From positions 1 through 7,909 of the forward strand of contig JAODLU010000096.1 of the NCBI GenBank assembly GCA_025464125.1: a stretch of DNA of 7,909 nt, in the 5' to 3' direction. The notes beneath the pieces were generated by a model. That model had not been told where the DNA came from and made no database searches. It worked only from the letters and a program-made list of their open reading frames with translations. This stretch comes from Microbacteriaceae bacterium (lineage in GTDB: Bacteria > Actinomycetota > Actinomycetes > Actinomycetales > Microbacteriaceae). Every line of letters starts with the position of its first letter. Within the stretch, counting starts at the first letter, position 1. Below are positions 1 through 6,748 of the stretch, one piece after another. A program made the translations under genes and the position numbers.

Positions 1-372
1 GTGGAAGAGATCATGATGAAGAATCCGCCGAGCCTGCAACTGAACCTCGATGCGCTCGATCGTGTGCCCGAGCAGCTCTTCATGGCGGTCGACGAGGGCA
101 CGCCAGACCCGTCGTGGATCTACGACACCGACTTCTCGAACATCGACCATGTCGATGTGCTGACCGGCACCAAGGCATGGCAGATCGCCACTCGACTGGC
201 ATACGAGGGCATTCCAGTCGGCCAGGTCATCCCCGACATGAAGAAGGCGACCGCCGCATTCTTCGCGCTTCCTGCGCCAGCGGGCAGCCCCAAGGTTGCC
301 CTTGTCAATTACGAGTTGATGATGGAACTGCGCAAGCTGCTCGGCTACCTGGAACTCGAGGGCAGGTCGTGA
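1..372 (+). CDS. murT: MurT-like Mur ligase family protein, C-terminal part (5' end outside window)
   Basis: The reading frame is open from the first base and ends with TGA at 370-372. The 123 visible residues match the C-terminal (DUF1727-type) domain of MurT, the ATP-dependent subunit that, with GatD, converts the alpha-carboxyl of D-Glu in lipid II to an amide. Visible landmarks are DPSWIYDTDF (residues 36-45), where the family has a D-x-S-W-[IL]-[WY]-D signature, a TGTKAWQIATRLAYEGIP stretch (55-72) like the family's TG-x-RA...RL-Y-G-P, and a final VNYELMMELRKLL helix. The ATP-binding and zinc-ribbon parts lie upstream and cannot be judged. The segment before DPSW (MAVDEGTP) lacks the N-x-x-x-ADG pattern I expect in amidating MurT, a possible divergence. 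The GTG at base 1 is most likely internal, because the domain alone is far shorter than MurT (about 410-440 aa). It is coupled to gatD by a GTGA overlap. Confidence 0.85.
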   Translation: MEEIMMKNPPSLQLNLDALDRVPEQLFMAVDEGTPDPSWIYDTDFSNIDHVDVLTGTKAWQIATRLAYEGIPVGQVIPDMKKATAAFFALPAPAGSPKVALVNYELMMELRKLLGYLELEGRS

Positions 373-1112
373 CGACGCTCAGCATCCTGCACCTTTACCC
401 CCGCGAACTGGGCATCAACGGTGACGTCGGCAACGTTCTGGCCCTTCGCCGTCGCGCGGAGTGGCGCGATATCGATGTCCAGGTGATCGACCACGAGATC
501 GGTGACCAGCTGACGGATGCCCCTGATTTAGTCTTCATCGGAAGCGGGCCGCTTTCCGCGCAACTGGCCGTGCACGACGATCTGCTGCGAATTGCACCGA
601 CCCTCAGGAAGTGGGCGGCGGAGGGTGTTCCCATGCTCGCGATCACGGCCGGCTGGCAGCTCTTCGGCACGCAACTGACGCTCGCCGACGGCACGGTACT
701 CGACGGCGCCGGCGTGCTGCCGTCGACTGCCCGGCTGATCGACGGCCGCACGATCAGCGAAATGACCGGAACCGGTCGTAACGGTGACCTGATGGCAGGT
801 TTCGAGAACCACGGCGCAATCATGACGCTGAGTGGCGGTGAGCCGCTGATGACCGTCGGCTACGGCAAGGGAAACACCGGCTTGGCCGCGGAGCCTGGGG
901 ATCGGGTCGAAGGGCTGGTTGACGGCGCGAACATCGGCACTAACCTGCATGGTCCGTTCCTGCCCATGAATCCGGCGTACGCCGACCTGCTGCTCGCAAG
1001 TGCCCTCGCTCGCACGGGAGCCTCGCTCCCTGCGGCCGACGCGCGTGTGCACGCCGTGGACCTGTCCGCCGAGAAGGCTCGCGAGGCTGTGGTCGGCCGC
1101 GTCGGGAGCTAG
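369..1112 (+). CDS. gatD: GatD-like glutamine amidotransferase subunit lacking the catalytic cysteine
   Basis: This 247-aa protein of the CobB/CobQ-like class I glutamine amidotransferase family normally pairs with MurT and feeds it ammonia from glutamine. The GTG start at 369 overlaps the murT stop (GTGA), the usual arrangement. An in-frame ATG at 114 is rejected because it lies inside murT and adds no homology. Family features are HLYPRELGINGDVGNVLALRRR (residues 8-29, quoted in part: HLYPRELG...GNVLALRRR), FENHG (145-149) and GTNLHGPFLP (190-199), whose His194 matches the catalytic His. The nucleophile motif, normally [IV]-C-[GA]-G-[YF]-Q-L-L-G, reads ITAGWQLFG (92-100): Thr93, codon ACG at 645-647, replaces Cys. 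The upstream GGGQDxEQ-like loop reads GSGPLSAQ (58-65). Glutaminase activity is therefore not expected. It may be a structural partner of MurT, or may help present an amino-acid nucleophile (inference). Family assignment is secure; loss of activity is likely. Confidence 0.9.
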   Translation: MTTLSILHLYPRELGINGDVGNVLALRRRAEWRDIDVQVIDHEIGDQLTDAPDLVFIGSGPLSAQLAVHDDLLRIAPTLRKWAAEGVPMLAITAGWQLFGTQLTLADGTVLDGAGVLPSTARLIDGRTISEMTGTGRNGDLMAGFENHGAIMTLSGGEPLMTVGYGKGNTGLAAEPGDRVEGLVDGANIGTNLHGPFLPMNPAYADLLLASALARTGASLPAADARVHAVDLSAEKAREAVVGRVGS

Positions 1113-1152: not shown

Positions 1153-2436
1153 CTACTTGGCCGCGACTGCCTGTGCGGAGCGGCTGGAAAGCACTGTGTT
1201 CGCGCTCGCTTCGATGATGTCGAGGCCGCGTTCCAGCACTTCGTTGTCGATCGTGAGAGCGGGCAGCAGCTTCAGCACCTCATCGAAAGCCCCGGAGGTC
1301 TCGATGATGAGGCCATTCCTGAAAGATTCTCCCGCGATCTCGTTGGCCACTGTCGGATCCGTTCCGACCAGCCCAAGCAGCAGGCCGCGGCCACGCACCG
1401 AGAACTCACCAGGATGATCAGCTGAGATCTTCTCCAGGCGCTCTCGAACGAGTGCCGACTTGCGATGGACTTCGGCCGATAGCGTGTCGTCTGCCCAGTA
1501 CGTCTCGAGTGCGACAGTGGCACCGACGAAAGCCAGGTTGTTGCCACGGAAGGTTCCGGTGTGGCCACCCGGTTTCCAGATGTCGTACTCCGGTTTGATC
1601 AGCACGAGTGACATCGGCAGCCCGTAACCGGACAGCGACTTCGAGAGAATAACGACGTCTGGCACGATTCCGGAGTCCTCGAAGCTGAAGAATTCACCAG
1701 AGCGCCCGCAGCCGATCTGGATGTCGTCAGCGATCAGCAGGATGCCGTGGGCGATGCAGAGGTCGGCCAGGCTTCGCAGCCACTCGGCCCGCGCCACGTT
1801 GACGCCTCCTTCACCCTGCACGGTCTCGACGATCACAGCGGCTGGCAGGTCAAGACCGCTGCTCGGGTCGGTGAGCAGCTTCGCGAACTGGGCGATCGTG
1901 TCTGTCTCATCGTCGTAATAGCCGTCGTACGGCAGGAAGGTGACGTCCCCGAGCGGCACCCCGGCCGCCGCACGATACTTCGAGTTGCCGGTCGCCGCCA
2001 GCGCCCCGAGGCTAAGCCCGTGATAGCCGTGGGTGAAGGCGACGACGTTGGTGCGGCCGGTGACCTGGCGGGCAATTTTCAGGGCAGCCTCGACCGCATT
2101 CGCCCCCGTCGGGCCGGTGAACTGCAGCTTGTAGTCCAGCTTGCGCGGCAGCAGCACGTGACTGCGGAAGGTTTCGAGGAACTTCTTCTTGGCCGTCGTC
2201 GCCATGTCGAGACCGTGAACGATGCCGTCGGCCTGGATGTAGTCGATGATCGCCTGCTTGAACTTCGGGTTGTTGTGACCGTAGTTCAGGGTGCCTGCGC
2301 CGCTGAAGAAGTCGATGCGCTCGACACCGTCCTGGTCGACCATGATCGAGCCGTGCGCGTGGTCGAAGATCACCGGGAACGAGCGGATATAACCGCGCAC
2401 TTCGGACTCCATGGAGTTGAAGATGCTGAGGTCCAT
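1153..2436 (-). CDS. ectB: EctB-type L-2,4-diaminobutyrate:2-oxoglutarate aminotransferase
   Basis: This 427-aa class III PLP aminotransferase has the usual EctB length and matches EctB along its whole length. The family interconverts L-aspartate 4-semialdehyde plus glutamate with L-2,4-diaminobutyrate plus 2-oxoglutarate. Visible motifs are the N-terminal ESEVRGYIRSFPVIFD (10-25), GAGTLNYGHNNP (46-57), DGIVHGLDMAT (70-80), the PLP-phosphate loop TGPTGANAVEAALK (107-120), ETVQGEGGVN (204-213), IADDIQIGCGRSG with Asp237 for the pyridine nitrogen, LSKSLSGYGLP with PLP Lys266, and HTGTFRGNN. The ATG at 2434-2436 is preceded by AGGAAAGG (- strand, 2452-2445) at 8 nt spacing. It lies 125 bp downstream of the Alr1 gene on the same strand and converges with gatD. 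No ectA or ectC is present in the window, so the DAB may serve the cell wall instead of ectoine (inference). An ectoine role cannot be excluded without the rest of the genome. Confidence 0.93.
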   Translation of the reverse strand: MDLSIFNSMESEVRGYIRSFPVIFDHAHGSIMVDQDGVERIDFFSGAGTLNYGHNNPKFKQAIIDYIQADGIVHGLDMATTAKKKFLETFRSHVLLPRKLDYKLQFTGPTGANAVEAALKIARQVTGRTNVVAFTHGYHGLSLGALAATGNSKYRAAAGVPLGDVTFLPYDGYYDDETDTIAQFAKLLTDPSSGLDLPAAVIVETVQGEGGVNVARAEWLRSLADLCIAHGILLIADDIQIGCGRSGEFFSFEDSGIVPDVVILSKSLSGYGLPMSLVLIKPEYDIWKPGGHTGTFRGNNLAFVGATVALETYWADDTLSAEVHRKSALVRERLEKISADHPGEFSVRGRGLLLGLVGTDPTVANEIAGESFRNGLIIETSGAFDEVLKLLPALTIDNEVLERGLDIIEASANTVLSSRSAQAVAAK

Positions 2437-2561: not shown

Positions 2562-3596
2562 TCAGTCGGTGTATACCCGTTCTACGCGCTGCGCGATGCG
2601 CACCACGATTTCGTCACCGATGCTGTCTGCCCAGTTAGCCCACTCTTCCGCAGTTGGCTCGCCAGCGTCCCCGGTGCCGAACAGCACGACTTCGTCGCCA
2701 ACGGAGAGATTGTGGGCCTCGATAACCGATTCATCGACCCCGATCGAGAGGATGCGCGCCCTCGCGCCACCTGCCCAGGCCTCAGCGCGGGGGAGTGCGC
2801 CGCCGGCCAACCCATCGCCGAATCCGACGCCGATCGTCGCAGCGCCGGCTTCCACCGAGGTGACCGTCGTAACCAGGGTCATCACCGCAATGAGTCCGAG
2901 CTCGCGCCCCGTGATGTCGTCGAATGGCGAGATGCCGTAAGCCGCGATGCCGAAGCGCACGAGATCCAGTCGTGCCTCGGGCATCCGGATTCCTGCCGAG
3001 CTTGCGGCGAGGTGCACCATGCTGAAACGTGCGCCGAGCGCCTCGGCGACCGCGATTGCTTCATGCAGGGCGGCGAGGGCCGCGGCGTCCTCTTCTTCTG
3101 AGGCGTCTGCCAGGTGCGACCATGCGCCGAAGACGGTCACCGCGCCACGTTTCTCGGCCGCGAGCGCCGCTGTGACGAGCGCTGGCCATTCCTCCGGCGA
3201 TGCGCCATTGCGATGAAGGCCGGTGTCGATTTTCAGGTGCACGCGCACCGGATGCCCCGGCCGAGCAGCTTCGATGGCCTCAAGCTCGTGTACCGACGAC
3301 ACACCAAGCTCGACTCCGGCGCGGGCTGCCGCACCGAAGTCGCTCTTCAGCCCGTGCAGCCATGCGAAGAGCGGAGCGGTGACACCGGCCTCCCGCAGTG
3401 CGAGGGCTGCCGGGATGTCGAGCACAGCTAGGGAACTGGCACCGGATTCGAGGGCGATCGGCGCGAGCTCGAGCATGCCATGACCGTACGCATTTGCTTT
3501 GACGGCCAGCATGGTGGCTGACGGGGCGGCGATGGCGGCAAGCACGCGCACGTTGTGGCGGAATGCATCGAGATCGATGATTGCGCGGGCGGTCAT
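2562..3596 (-). CDS. alr: Alanine racemase-like protein (Alr1) with PLP lysine but no catalytic tyrosine
   Basis: This 344-aa fold-type III PLP protein is shorter than typical Alr (about 360-380 aa). The N-terminal barrel is complete: MLAVKANAYGHG (29-40) with PLP Lys33 and Tyr37, HLKIDTGLHRNG (120-131) with Lys122 and Arg129, WSHLADA with His161, and LDLVRFGIAAYG (210-221) with Arg214. In the C-terminal domain, MTLVTTVTSVEAG (239-251) runs straight into AATIGVGFGDG (252-262). About 15 residues are missing, including the SYG segment with the catalytic Tyr (Tyr265 in Geobacillus numbering). The GRxxMD motif reads SIGVDE, and the usual NYE near the C-terminus reads IGDE (Asp328 where Tyr354 is expected). 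The ATG at 3594-3596 overlaps the TGA of the Alr2 gene as ATGA. A homodimer should not racemize. I infer that it needs Alr2 to supply the Tyr. The substrate is probably not alanine, perhaps a diamino acid. Confidence 0.9.
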   Translation of the reverse strand: MTARAIIDLDAFRHNVRVLAAIAAPSATMLAVKANAYGHGMLELAPIALESGASSLAVLDIPAALALREAGVTAPLFAWLHGLKSDFGAAARAGVELGVSSVHELEAIEAARPGHPVRVHLKIDTGLHRNGASPEEWPALVTAALAAEKRGAVTVFGAWSHLADASEEEDAAALAALHEAIAVAEALGARFSMVHLAASSAGIRMPEARLDLVRFGIAAYGISPFDDITGRELGLIAVMTLVTTVTSVEAGAATIGVGFGDGLAGGALPRAEAWAGGARARILSIGVDESVIEAHNLSVGDEVVLFGTGDAGEPTAEEWANWADSIGDEIVVRIAQRVERVYTD

Positions 3597-4225
3597 GTGC
3601 TGGCCTGTCCTTCGTCGAGCCAGCGCCGGTGCACGCGGTGCCCAAGGCCCGCGAACAGGTCAAGGGTGCTGCGGCGGGCGAGAGCCGACCATTCCTGCGC
3701 GCGATCGGCGTCCCAGACGACCACCTCATCGCCGACTGTGGCCTCGCCATCACCCAGGTCGAGCACGAACTGGTCCATCGCGATTCGTCCAGCGACCGTG
3801 CCGCTCCTGCCGCCGGTTGACGCGGTCGCACGACTGGAGCCGAGGCGCGGCAGCCCGTCCGCATAGCCGAGGCCGACAAGGGCAACCGTGCTGTCGGCGA
3901 CCGTGCGATAGGTGTAGCCGTAAGAGATGCGGCTGCCAGCGGGCAGCGCTTTGACTGCTACGACTTCGCCGACGAGGGTGAGCACGCCTTCGTAGACGGG
4001 TACGCCGTCGGGTGCTGTCATCGCACCGGGGGGCAGGGTTTGCCCTGGCGAGACCTGGAACTTCGTAAAGCCGAACGACCTGGACTCATCGAGCACGCGC
4101 CGGAAGCCGTGCCCGTAAGCGTCGGCCCTGAGGTCTACGACCGAGGCGCCGGAATCGGCGATGGCGCGCAGATTCGACCGGAGCCGGAAGGCGGACAGCC
4201 GTGCCTCACGGAGTAACCCGGCCAC
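3593..4225 (-). CDS. Truncated alanine racemase-like protein (Alr2): C-terminal domain with catalytic tyrosine, no barrel, Lys to Arg
   Basis: The protein has 210 aa. Residues 6-40 match the first Alr strands, REARLSAF...VVDLRADAYGHG, but Arg33 (codon AGG, 4129-4127) stands where the PLP Lys belongs. The barrel then collapses: about 30 residues (41-71) replace some 190. Residues 72-203 are a full Alr C-terminal beta domain: LTLVGEVVAVKALPAG, ISYGYTYRT with catalytic-type Tyr102, ALVGLGYADGLPR (115-127), AGRIAMDQFVLDLG (145-158) with Met150-Asp151, and VGDEVVVW. NYE near the end is replaced by TLD. The GTG start lies 18 bp after the TAG of the upstream gene in the same frame, with no clear Shine-Dalgarno, so re-initiation is likely. 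The stop overlaps the Alr1 start (ATGA), a sign of coupled 1:1 synthesis. It keeps what Alr1 lacks and lacks what Alr1 keeps. A decayed pseudogene is unlikely given the intact motifs and overlaps. Confidence 0.88.
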   Translation of the reverse strand: MAGLLREARLSAFRLRSNLRAIADSGASVVDLRADAYGHGFRRVLDESRSFGFTKFQVSPGQTLPPGAMTAPDGVPVYEGVLTLVGEVVAVKALPAGSRISYGYTYRTVADSTVALVGLGYADGLPRLGSSRATASTGGRSGTVAGRIAMDQFVLDLGDGEATVGDEVVVWDADRAQEWSALARRSTLDLFAGLGHRVHRRWLDEGQAST

Positions 4226-4243: not shown

Positions 4244-4483
4244 CTAGACGGAGCGCTGGTTCTCGAGGAGCCTGTCGGATTCGTCGTGCCAGTCGCTCGC
4301 TACAGCGGCAAGCTTCTCCTGGTACTTCTTGCCGTGGTGCGAGCAGAAGAGCAATTCGCTGGTGCCGATCGAAACGCGGATATAGGCCTGGGCGCCGCAG
4401 GAATCGCAGCGATCTGAGGCAGTGAGTTCGTGGGCGGAGTGGAGTTCATCGAGTGTTGTGGTTTCGGGTGCGATCTGTGACAT
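4244..4483 (-). CDS. Small CxxC zinc-ribbon protein (DUF7455-like)
   Basis: This 79-aa protein is of a type common in actinobacteria next to parE and usually annotated as a hypothetical or DUF7455 protein. The core reads ELTASDRCDSCGAQAYIRVS then LLFCSHHGKKY. Cys26, Cys29, Cys47 and His49/His50 form a probable zinc site, followed by a helical tail (KLAAVASDWHDESDRLLE). Its function is unknown. The ATG at 4481-4483 is preceded by an excellent GGAGGAGC Shine-Dalgarno (- strand, 4497-4490) at 6 nt. It is the first gene of the - strand group. Its TAG is 18 bp before, and in frame with, the Alr2 start, so its promoter probably drives the racemase pair. It is transcribed divergently from parE. Confidence 0.85.
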   Translation of the reverse strand: MSQIAPETTTLDELHSAHELTASDRCDSCGAQAYIRVSIGTSELLFCSHHGKKYQEKLAAVASDWHDESDRLLENQRSV

Positions 4484-4648: not shown

Positions 4649-4650
4649 GT
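4645..4650 (+). promoter_or_regulatory. -10 element TAGGGT for parE, leaderless type
   Basis: TAGGGT fits the actinobacterial TANNNT -10 pattern and ends 7 bp before GTG 4658. Transcription would begin at or next to the G of the start codon, giving a leaderless mRNA. No good -35 is visible 16-18 bp upstream. The same bases could instead be read as a Shine-Dalgarno (AGGGTGA, 4646-4652), also pointing to 4658. Confidence 0.5.
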
Positions 4651-4657
4651 GAGTGCC

Positions 4658-6748
4658 GTGCCAAATTCCGACTACTCCGCCCGGCACCTCTCGGTGCTCG
4701 AGGGCCTCGAGGCCGTTCGCAAGCGCCCGGGAATGTACATTGGCTCCACGGATTCCCGTGGCCTCATGCACTGCCTGTGGGAGATCATCGACAACTCGGT
4801 GGACGAGGCGCTCGGGGGCAACGGTGACGACATCACGGTCATCCTGCACAAGGACTCCAGCGTCGAGGTTCGCGACAGGGCCAGGGGTATCCCCGTCGAC
4901 ATCGAGCCGAAGACTGGCCTGTCGGGCGTCGAAGTGGTTTTCACCAAACTGCACGCCGGTGGCAAGTTCGGCGGCGGGTCATACGCGGCGTCCGGCGGAC
5001 TGCACGGGGTCGGTGCCTCAGTCGTCAACGCTCTTTCCGAGCGACTCGACGTCGAAGTAGACCGCGAAGGCAAGACGTGGGCCATGTCGTTCCACCGTGG
5101 TGAGCCAGGCATTTTCGCCGACAGCGGTGAGCCCCGTGCCGACGCGCCCTTCACTCCGTTCGTAGCGAACAGTGAGCTGCGGGTCGTGGGCAAGGTCGCC
5201 AAGGGGGTGACGGGAACGCGCATTCGGTACTGGGCCGACCCCCAGATCTTCACCAGGGGCACGACCTTCCAAACTGACGAACTAGTGGCACGTGCCCGCC
5301 AAACGGCATTCCTCGTTCGCGGCCTCGGTCTCGACATCACCGATGATCGCGGCGACGAGCCCACCCGTGAGGTCTTCAGGTTCGACGGGGGCATCTCGGA
5401 GTACGTCGATTTCCTCGCCCCGGACACCGCACTCACCGAAACCTGGCGCATGACGGGCGCAGGGTCATTCACCGAGACGGTTCCAGTGCTCGATGACAAG
5501 GGCCACATGGTTGCGACAGAACTCAGCCGCGACTGTGAGGTCGACATTGCACTTCGCTGGGGCACCGGCTACGACACGGTCTTCCGCAGCTACGTCAACA
5601 TCATCGCGACACCGAAGGGCGGCACACACCAGGCCGGGTTTGAGGCAGGCATGCTCAAGTTCCTGCGCGCCCAGGTCGAGCAGAATTCCCGTCGCCTGAA
5701 GATCGGCTCCAACAGCACAGACAAGCTCGAGAAAGACGACATCCTCGCGGGGCTTACCGCCGTTCTCACTGTTCGTCTCCCTGAGCCGCAGTTCGAGGGA
5801 CAGACGAAGGAGATCCTCGGCACGCCTGCCGTGCGCAACATCGTCGCCAGCGTCGTCGCGAAGACCATGGCCGACAAGTTCGGCTCTCCGAAGCGTGACG
5901 ACAAAACGCAGTCAGCCCTCGTTCTCGACAAGATCGTGGCCGAAATGAAGTCCCGCGTGTCGGCACGCGCGCACAAAGAGACCCAGCGCCGCAAGAACGC
6001 GCTGGAGAACTCGTCACTTCCCGCGAAGCTCGTCGACTGCCGCAGCTCGGATGTCGCGAACAGCGAGCTTTTCATCGTGGAGGGCGACTCCGCTCTCGGC
6101 ACCGCGAAACTCGCCCGCGACAGCGAGTACCAGGCCCTCCTGCCCATCCGCGGCAAGATTCTCAACGTGCAGAAGGCGTCGGTCTCCGACATGCTGTCGA
6201 ACGCCGAGTGCGCCTCCATAATCCAGGTGATCGGCGCGGGTTCCGGTCGCAGCTTCGATCTCACCAGCGCCCGTTACGGCAAGGTGATCATCATGAGTGA
6301 CGCCGACGTCGACGGCGCGCATATCCGCACCCTGCTGCTCACGCTGTTCATGCGGTACATGCCGGAGATGATCAAGGACGGCCGCGTCTACGCGGCGGTG
6401 CCTCCCCTTCACAGGGTTATCGTCATGAATCCCGGAACGAAACCGAACGAGACGATCTACACCTACTCCGAGGCCGAACTGAACGGCGTGCTCGCCGGGC
6501 TCAAGCGCAGCAACAAAAAGTACCAGGACCCCATCCAGCGCTACAAGGGTCTTGGCGAGATGGATGCTGACCAGCTCGCCACGACCACGATGGATCGTGC
6601 ACATCGCACCCTCCGCCGGGTGAATGTGCCGGATGCGGCGAACGCTGAGCGCGTCTTCGAACTGCTGATGGGCAATGATGTCGCTCCACGCAAGGACTTC
6701 ATCATCGCTGGATCAGAGGGCCTGTCTCGCGACAGGATCGACGTCTAA
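4658..6748 (+). CDS. parE: DNA topoisomerase IV subunit B (type IIA topoisomerase ATPase subunit)
   Basis: This 696-aa ATPase/TOPRIM subunit of a type IIA topoisomerase would act with ParC to decatenate chromosomes. The GHKL ATPase includes SVLEGLEAVRKRPGMYIGS, EIIDNSVDEALGG (from Glu42) and the ATP lid GGGSYAASGGLHGVGASVVN (20 residues). The transducer has LTVRLPEPQFEGQTKEILG. The TOPRIM domain has FIVEGDSALGTAKLARDSEY (acidic Glu475) and SDADVDGAHIR (Asp548, 550, 552). The C-terminus has IQRYKGLGEMDADQL and RVFELLMGNDV. EGDSALGT instead of the EGDSAGGS usual in GyrB favours ParE of the actinobacterial type. GyrB cannot be fully excluded without the partner gene. GTG 4658 is chosen over GTG 4649 because the -10-like TAGGGT overlaps 4649 and because homologues have only a few residues before SDYSARHLS. 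No key residue is missing. Confidence 0.93.
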   Translation: MPNSDYSARHLSVLEGLEAVRKRPGMYIGSTDSRGLMHCLWEIIDNSVDEALGGNGDDITVILHKDSSVEVRDRARGIPVDIEPKTGLSGVEVVFTKLHAGGKFGGGSYAASGGLHGVGASVVNALSERLDVEVDREGKTWAMSFHRGEPGIFADSGEPRADAPFTPFVANSELRVVGKVAKGVTGTRIRYWADPQIFTRGTTFQTDELVARARQTAFLVRGLGLDITDDRGDEPTREVFRFDGGISEYVDFLAPDTALTETWRMTGAGSFTETVPVLDDKGHMVATELSRDCEVDIALRWGTGYDTVFRSYVNIIATPKGGTHQAGFEAGMLKFLRAQVEQNSRRLKIGSNSTDKLEKDDILAGLTAVLTVRLPEPQFEGQTKEILGTPAVRNIVASVVAKTMADKFGSPKRDDKTQSALVLDKIVAEMKSRVSARAHKETQRRKNALENSSLPAKLVDCRSSDVANSELFIVEGDSALGTAKLARDSEYQALLPIRGKILNVQKASVSDMLSNAECASIIQVIGAGSGRSFDLTSARYGKVIIMSDADVDGAHIRTLLLTLFMRYMPEMIKDGRVYAAVPPLHRVIVMNPGTKPNETIYTYSEAELNGVLAGLKRSNKKYQDPIQRYKGLGEMDADQLATTTMDRAHRTLRRVNVPDAANAERVFELLMGNDVAPRKDFIIAGSEGLSRDRIDV

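Follow-up and report, generated by a model that had tools for sequence, protein, structure and literature searches.

A putative heterodimeric racemase of Microbacteriaceae whose single active site appears to be divided between two reduced alanine racemase-like proteins

Alanine racemase (Alr; EC 5.1.1.1; PF01168 plus PF00842; structures 1SFT, 1XFC and 1VFH) is a textbook homodimer and drug target, and belongs to the pyridoxal phosphate (PLP)-dependent Alr-like racemase superfamily, which we take to be of fold type III. Its active site is built at the subunit interface, where, in the solved structures, Lys39 of one subunit meets Tyr265 of its partner; each subunit has both halves of a site, and there are two sites per dimer. 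Here we describe the genes of two adjacent Alr-like proteins, Alr1 and Alr2, in a 7,909 nt stretch of DNA from a Microbacteriaceae bacterium (GenBank assembly GCA_025464125.1, contig JAODLU010000096.1), referred to below as the window, which is the whole of one contig of a 389-contig metagenome-assembled genome (MAG) that is 64.7% complete. The two proteins resemble homodimeric Alr in fold and in an interface-built site, the PLP Lys and barrel residues being found in Alr1 and the catalytic Tyr, the gate residues and the Met in Alr2, but each protein has one half and a single site is expected per pair. They also differ at position 354, where homodimeric Alr has Tyr and the pair has Asp or Glu. 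We consider it highly probable from the distribution of these residues that Alr1 and Alr2 work only as a heterodimer, a racemase whose one active site is composed of residues from both proteins.

Serine palmitoyltransferase, an unrelated enzyme of fold type I, offers a partial parallel, although its LCB1 subunit is not known to be a physically reduced half. In this eukaryotic LCB1/LCB2 heterodimer the PLP Lys is absent from one subunit and a single site has been hypothesized (PMC3794620). The Bar and Lyr racemases act on basic amino acids and, as in the pair, have Tyr354 replaced; this Tyr is believed to be needed for the alanine specificity of Alr, and its place is taken by Thr391 in the lysine racemase and by Ala393 in the broad-specificity racemase (PMC3485190). 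Both are, however, homodimers of complete subunits, with Thr or Ala at the position where the pair has Asp or Glu. The cofactor-independent diaminobutyrate racemase PddB shares with the pair the proposed substrate, 2,4-diaminobutyrate (DAB), and the phylum, but is weakly DapF-like, uses no PLP and serves poly-D-Dab rather than the cell wall (PMC8225329). No heterodimeric or split alanine racemase was found in the open-licence PMC literature searched, and the original prediction, made from the sequence of the window, likewise knew of no described obligate heterodimeric Alr of this kind; nor did that literature yield a racemase gene for the D-DAB or D-ornithine (D-Orn) of Microbacteriaceae walls. 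The fold and catalytic residues are thus Alr-like and, as far as found, the novelty lies in one active site divided between two obligate partners. If its substrate is D-DAB or D-Orn, the pair would be a candidate for the enzyme behind the D-diamino acid of Microbacteriaceae walls.

The elements of the pair in the window are as follows.

2562..3596, minus strand: Alr1, 344 aa, putative PLP-binding barrel subunit (K33, Y37, K122, R129, H161, S199, R214; D328)
3593..4225, minus strand: Alr2, 210 aa, putative lid subunit (C-terminal domain with Y102, Y121, R127, R147 and M150-D151; R33)
3593..3596, minus strand: ATGA stop–start overlap of Alr2 and Alr1, read in the sequence

Alr1 matches PF01168 in full (1–220 of 220), but its match to PF00842 does not begin before profile position 26. 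Alr2 covers PF00842 at 1–126 of 127 and has no Pfam match to PF01168 at E ≤ 0.001. Aligned with Mycobacterium tuberculosis Alr, Alr1 covers the barrel with residues 2–261 and the end of the C-terminal domain with residues 249–343. Residues 249–261 align twice, to the catalytic-Tyr segment (with Phe opposite the Tyr) and to a later GYADG motif, and neither alignment shows a Tyr; the catalytic-Tyr segment is missing from Alr1, which has D328 at the position of Tyr354. Alr2, which starts at a GTG codon, aligns over residues 79–205 with Alr from before the catalytic Tyr through the C terminus, and this part is preceded by a short barrel remnant around RADAYGHG, with R33 at the PLP-Lys position. 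The closest solved structures for both halves are actinobacterial Alr (Streptomyces, M. tuberculosis), and source records label them either ‘alanine racemase’ or ‘alanine racemase C-terminal domain-containing protein’. The earlier description of Alr1 as a full barrel without the Tyr segment, and of Alr2 as a C-terminal domain with a minimal barrel, is therefore borne out by Pfam and alignment; the residues that it named (Alr1 K33, K122, R129, H161 and R214; Alr2 R33, Y102 and M150-D151) all proved correct, as did the ATGA overlap of the genes.

In M. tuberculosis Alr, the middle and inner gate layers include four residues of the partner subunit, Tyr271', Tyr290', Arg296' and Arg316', and, among others of the same subunit, Tyr364 (PMC3485190). 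We equate the four partner residues with Tyr265, Tyr284, Arg290 and Arg309 of the Geobacillus enzyme. Judged by sequence, the division between the two proteins runs along the line where the subunits of Alr meet in its active site: Alr1 has the catalytic residues of the barrel side, and Alr2 those that a partner subunit gives from its C-terminal domain. The approximately 100 residues of C-terminal domain that remain in Alr1 are probably retained for position 354, because this position sits on the same subunit as the Lys.

A census covered 99 pairs at 98 loci (66 in a first set and 33 in a second), none identical, from Microbacteriaceae plus one unplaced Micrococcales MAG; besides the latter, the loci came from named Microbacterium genomes, a Cryobacterium-labelled MAG and 27 genus codes, of which 26 occur in the first set and the remaining one, g78, in the second. 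These loci are a fetched subset of the matches; for Microbacterium they number 30 of 99, and for each other genus roughly one to three. Residue numbers are those of Geobacillus Alr, Tyr284, Arg290, Met312 and Asp313 included. Left out were L070 (Alr1 cut by the contig end), L248 (broken frames, G390), L255 (a 10-base placeholder), L301 and L325 (each a second copy, from M. testaceum and G684 respectively) and L300 and L257 (ordinary Alr only); L068 was kept although its Alr1 is cut at the C terminus.

Lys39, Tyr43, Lys129, Arg136, His166, Ser204 and Arg219 were each present in 99/99 Alr1 proteins and Tyr265 in none. Eight Alr1 rows of the 66-pair set had a letter in the Tyr265 column, of which three were read as real (Gly, Gly and Ala) and five as misplaced neighbours or a contig end. 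In Alr2, Lys39 was found in 0/99 (five proteins having no recognizable remnant there), whereas Tyr265, Arg290 and Met312 were each found in 99/99; Tyr or Phe stood at position 284 in all 99, Arg309 was present in 93, and Asp313 in 83, the other 16 having Asn. Neither half of any pair had Lys39 and Tyr265 together, and natural fusions of the halves have both on one chain but in different halves, so the complementarity claimed in the original prediction holds for both catalytic residues without exception. Eleven of the 66 Alr2 proteins of the first set keep at least 44 barrel columns; the PLP Lys is gone in all of them and the catalytic residues of the C-terminal domain are intact, which is what barrel decay after loss of PLP would be expected to look like. 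As controls, 50 ordinary Alr kept Lys39, Tyr265, Arg290 and Met312 in 50/50, as did 23 downstream and 24 upstream copies from full-length tandem alr loci throughout; the ordinary controls were chosen by their letter at position 354, and their Tyr354 (50/50) is circular.

Alr2 lies directly upstream of Alr1 in 97/97 unfused pairs, with a 4 bp stop–start overlap in 88 of them (55/64 in the first set and 33/33 in the second). Ratios of non-synonymous to synonymous substitution (dN/dS) were 0.11–0.30 for Alr1 and 0.14–0.46 for Alr2, below 0.5 for both genes in 17/17 comparisons, and the two genes are thus under purifying selection. Decay or absence of Alr2 beside a retained Alr1, which had been named as evidence that would count against the pair, was not seen in any of the 99 counted pairs. 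All 30 Microbacterium loci fetched were pairs, and a close match to M. testaceum Alr1 was found in 99/119 Microbacterium genomes; in the window's own genus the pair was present in 12/13 genomes, the exception (G005) being 78% complete. An order-wide search of 297 genomes, an unspecified share of them from outside the family, matched two at E ≤ 1e-68, namely the window's own and one of the same family; 20 of the unmatched rows were listed. The matches listed in a scan of named genomes were mainly ordinary Alr, with few pairs.

Physical association of the halves is supported by natural Alr2–Alr1 fusions, found at two loci and as five database proteins (two named Pseudoclavibacter and one the protein of L251), together with the confidently predicted fold of one of them. 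The AlphaFold model of one fusion (P0001) has a mean local confidence (pLDDT) of 87.9 and a predicted TM score (pTM) of 0.89, the only stretch below 50 being the linker at 267–306; the comparison rows of this model span residues 270–663 and barely cover the Alr2 half. With the complementary residues, these observations lend weight to the heterodimer interpretation of the original prediction. In the heterodimer, the C-terminal domain of Alr2 would cap the Alr1 barrel, Tyr102 of Alr2 would take the alpha-proton of the L-amino acid and Lys33 of Alr1 would return a proton on the other face, and the reverse, and the ATGA overlap would couple synthesis of the two proteins near 1:1. Against this interpretation, the proximity of Tyr102 and Lys33 is taken from homology alone, and the pTM of a fused chain is no proof that the unfused proteins bind.

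The genes that surround the pair are listed here.

1..372, plus strand: C-terminal part of MurT (PF08353), which seems to run off the window
366..1112, plus strand: GatD-like glutamine amidotransferase, Thr94 (codon 645–647) in place of the catalytic Cys (profile match, motif comparison)
1153..2436, minus strand: EctB-like L-2,4-diaminobutyrate:2-oxoglutarate aminotransferase (TIGR02407, 625 bits, cut-off 552)
4244..4483, minus strand: DUF7455 protein (PF24254), conserved neighbour by synteny
4649..6748, plus strand: DNA topoisomerase IV/gyrase B subunit (ParE/GyrB, profile match), conserved neighbour that marks the site
beyond the ParE/GyrB gene, minus strand: short-chain dehydrogenase (profile search)

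We hypothesize that the heterodimer racemizes a basic amino acid, DAB or ornithine, for the peptidoglycan cross-bridge, and on the sequence evidence regard formation of D-DAB or D-Orn for group B peptidoglycan as a probable role. Position 354 of Alr1 was acidic in all 98 rows with a letter there (Asp in 43, Glu in 55), and Alr1 does not have the Tyr354 that restricts the pocket of an alanine racemase to alanine; among 57 non-tandem full-length copies, taken unfiltered, position 354 was Tyr in 48 and His in nine, the latter being a separate paralogue. An Asp or Glu in place of the alanine-restricting Tyr would suit a cationic side chain. The EctB-like aminotransferase is proposed to supply the substrate of the pair. 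Among 80 genomes searched (pairs and tandems, three with neither type of residue at 354), a close EctB was present in 15/50 Asp354 genomes versus 0/27 Glu354 genomes (Fisher P=0.0007, kinship ignored). At 47/66 loci of the first set the pair has GatD, a component of the peptidoglycan module MurT/GatD, as a neighbour. In Clavibacter michiganensis the bridge contains D-diaminobutyrate (PMC9603630). D-Orn, L-Lys or DAB occurs in the walls of Microbacterium: D-Orn is given for the M. testaceum clade other than M. enclense, M. oxydans is placed near D-ornithine strains and M. arborescens lies in an L-Lys clade (PMC10757982). M. testaceum and M. oxydans carry the pair, in its Glu354 type, and Microbacterium sp. 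Yaish 1, which shares 95.2% identity with M. arborescens across 11.6 kb, carries ordinary Alr only, so that the pair goes with D-ornithine walls in these few Microbacterium examples. The substrates listed in the original prediction (Ala, Ser, Lys, Orn and DAB) can accordingly be narrowed, the evidence favouring Orn or DAB.

Several observations weigh against this assignment. Walls of Cryobacterium are said to contain diaminobutyrate, yet Cryobacterium sp. Y11 showed no pair and no deletion-type Alr1, and the Cryobacterium-labelled MAG with a pair has Glu354, not Asp354. No close match to M. testaceum Alr1 was obtained in 20/119 Microbacterium genomes, the wall of Yaish 1 is inferred solely from its relatedness to M. 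arborescens, 35/50 Asp354 genomes lack a close EctB, and the Fisher test takes no account of kinship. At 19/66 loci, among them that of M. testaceum, the pair has no GatD next to it, and the same holds for M. oxydans and two further named Microbacterium loci; in M. testaceum no GatD match was found in the control genome search described below. No other Alr was seen in the window's own genome, which means little because that genome is only about 65% complete.

A heterodimer of the kind proposed might instead have D-Ala as its product, or yet another D-amino acid (D-Lys or D-Ser, for instance), which we judge to be unlikely but the most serious of the alternatives. The substrate is deduced entirely from position 354, the neighbouring genes and co-occurrence, and D-Lys is listed for some Microbacteriaceae walls (PMC7033078). 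Against such a product stand the acidic residue at position 354 in 98/98 Alr1 proteins and the EctB genes inside the fetched stretch beside the pair at the window, L212, L216, L223, L224 and L299. At least three PF00842 matches were present in 27/27 listed pair genomes outside the window's genus, and in 11/12 within it (the exception being the window's own incomplete genome); ordinary Alr therefore probably supplies D-Ala, and D-Ala supply as the main role of the pair is unlikely.

Much less probable is the explanation that Alr1 is a working PLP enzyme by itself, aldolase-like or a slow racemase, and that Alr2 regulates it or helps it to fold, with the Tyr of Alr2 playing no part in catalysis. 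Loss of Tyr265 creates aldolase activity in Geobacillus Alr (PMC6411801). Alr1 alone scores above the TIGR00492 cut-off of 168 bits (181 bits, Alr2 falling below it with 98) and folds confidently: its AlphaFold model (pLDDT 91.7, pTM 0.89) has an Alr-like fold, with query-normalized TM scores of 0.90–0.95 to the 18 best solved Alr chains. A regulator, however, would need no catalytic residues of a partner subunit, yet Tyr265, Arg290 and Met312 persist in every Alr2 of the census while its barrel has been lost or stripped of catalytic residues. The idea that Alr1 and Alr2 are pseudogenes in decay, or fragments that an assembly error made from one gene, has next to no probability and is rejected by the residue census and dN/dS: both proteins fall short of the normal Alr length, the window comes from a MAG and broken frames do occur at one fetched locus (L248), but the architecture is the same in 99 pairs, single-contig genomes included, dN/dS is low throughout, the losses are complementary rather than random, and Alr1 and Alr2 are not two pieces of one gene because both match the C-terminal domain.

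The GatD-like protein of the window has Thr94 where Staphylococcus aureus GatD has the Cys of its ICGGYQ motif, a residue that we take to be catalytic. This Cys is absent in 47/47 loci with GatD beside the pair (one of them, L070, does not belong to the 99 pairs). GatD matches were obtained in 24 of 30 control genomes, and in six, M. testaceum, Yaish 1 and four others, there were none; the Cys is present in all eight named controls from outside Microbacteriaceae and in two family members (G015 and G026), and absent in the 14 others, including Curtobacterium pusillum and Cryobacterium sp. Y11. Since the Cys is also absent from family controls, its loss tracks membership of the family, not possession of the pair. 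The bridge of group B walls is carried on the alpha-carboxyl of D-Glu. It is possible that MurT has been re-used to attach the bridge amino acid, and we hypothesize that the adjacent MurT, with the Cys-less GatD, would transfer the product of the racemase to lipid II.

A possible source of the two halves is seen in unreduced tandem pairs of full-length alr genes in other genera (loci L073–L086, L088, L239–L245 and L122), in which the upstream copy has Tyr or Trp at position 354 and the downstream copy Asp or Glu. In the tandems of g5, g33 and Curtobacterium, Lys129 has been lost from both copies (Cys upstream; Asn, Thr or Gly downstream) and the upstream copy has Asn at Asp313. In a tree of the barrel, reduced Alr1 and downstream tandem copies form one group (support 98) in which tandem copies are nested twice. 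A single origin of reduced Alr1 was rejected by the approximately unbiased test (P=0.0003, log-likelihood 76.9 lower; 62 Alr1 rows against 33 others, the group having been named after the tree was seen). In a tree of the C-terminal domain (with only 16 Alr1 and 24 Alr2 rows), the residual domain of Alr1 groups with the downstream copies of tandems, whereas Alr2 falls with ordinary copies and upstream ones (96). Very long branches lead to six upstream copies that have pseudo-barrels, and we place no trust in where these fall in the barrel tree. The simplest reading of these trees is that both halves would descend from a tandem duplication of alr, after which reciprocal reduction took place in parallel at least twice; later regain of a full C-terminal domain is an alternative. 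Unreduced, partly reduced, fully reduced and fused versions coexist, and provide a natural experiment on the evolution of an obligate heterodimer. The window's genus has one more Alr-like paralogue (L015–L023), which carries Phe43, Glu129, Ala309 and His354.

Taken together, a wider proposal can be put forward, tentatively and with more doubt than confidence. An obligate one-site heterodimer, arisen at least twice by reciprocal decay of tandem alr genes, might with MurT and a glutaminase-dead GatD make up the missing module of group B walls, forming D-DAB (Asp354) or D-ornithine (Glu354), and MurT would join that amino acid, not ammonia, to the alpha-carboxyl of D-Glu.

The ParE/GyrB protein of the window is 89–91% identical to copies in the same genus, and the loci L061–L071 of that genus have their pair at the same site beside ParE/DUF7455, in the opposite direction to that of the window. 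The cassette of the window is of the inverted Asp354 type with EctB, whereas these relatives have a Glu354-type pair, and in the barrel tree the window pair falls in the Asp354 group and other members of its genus in the Glu354 group. This suggests that the cassette at this site was replaced by one of a different type, a swap that may be able to alter wall type. The locus L216 (G234) holds two different reduced pairs, which are separated by an EctB gene.

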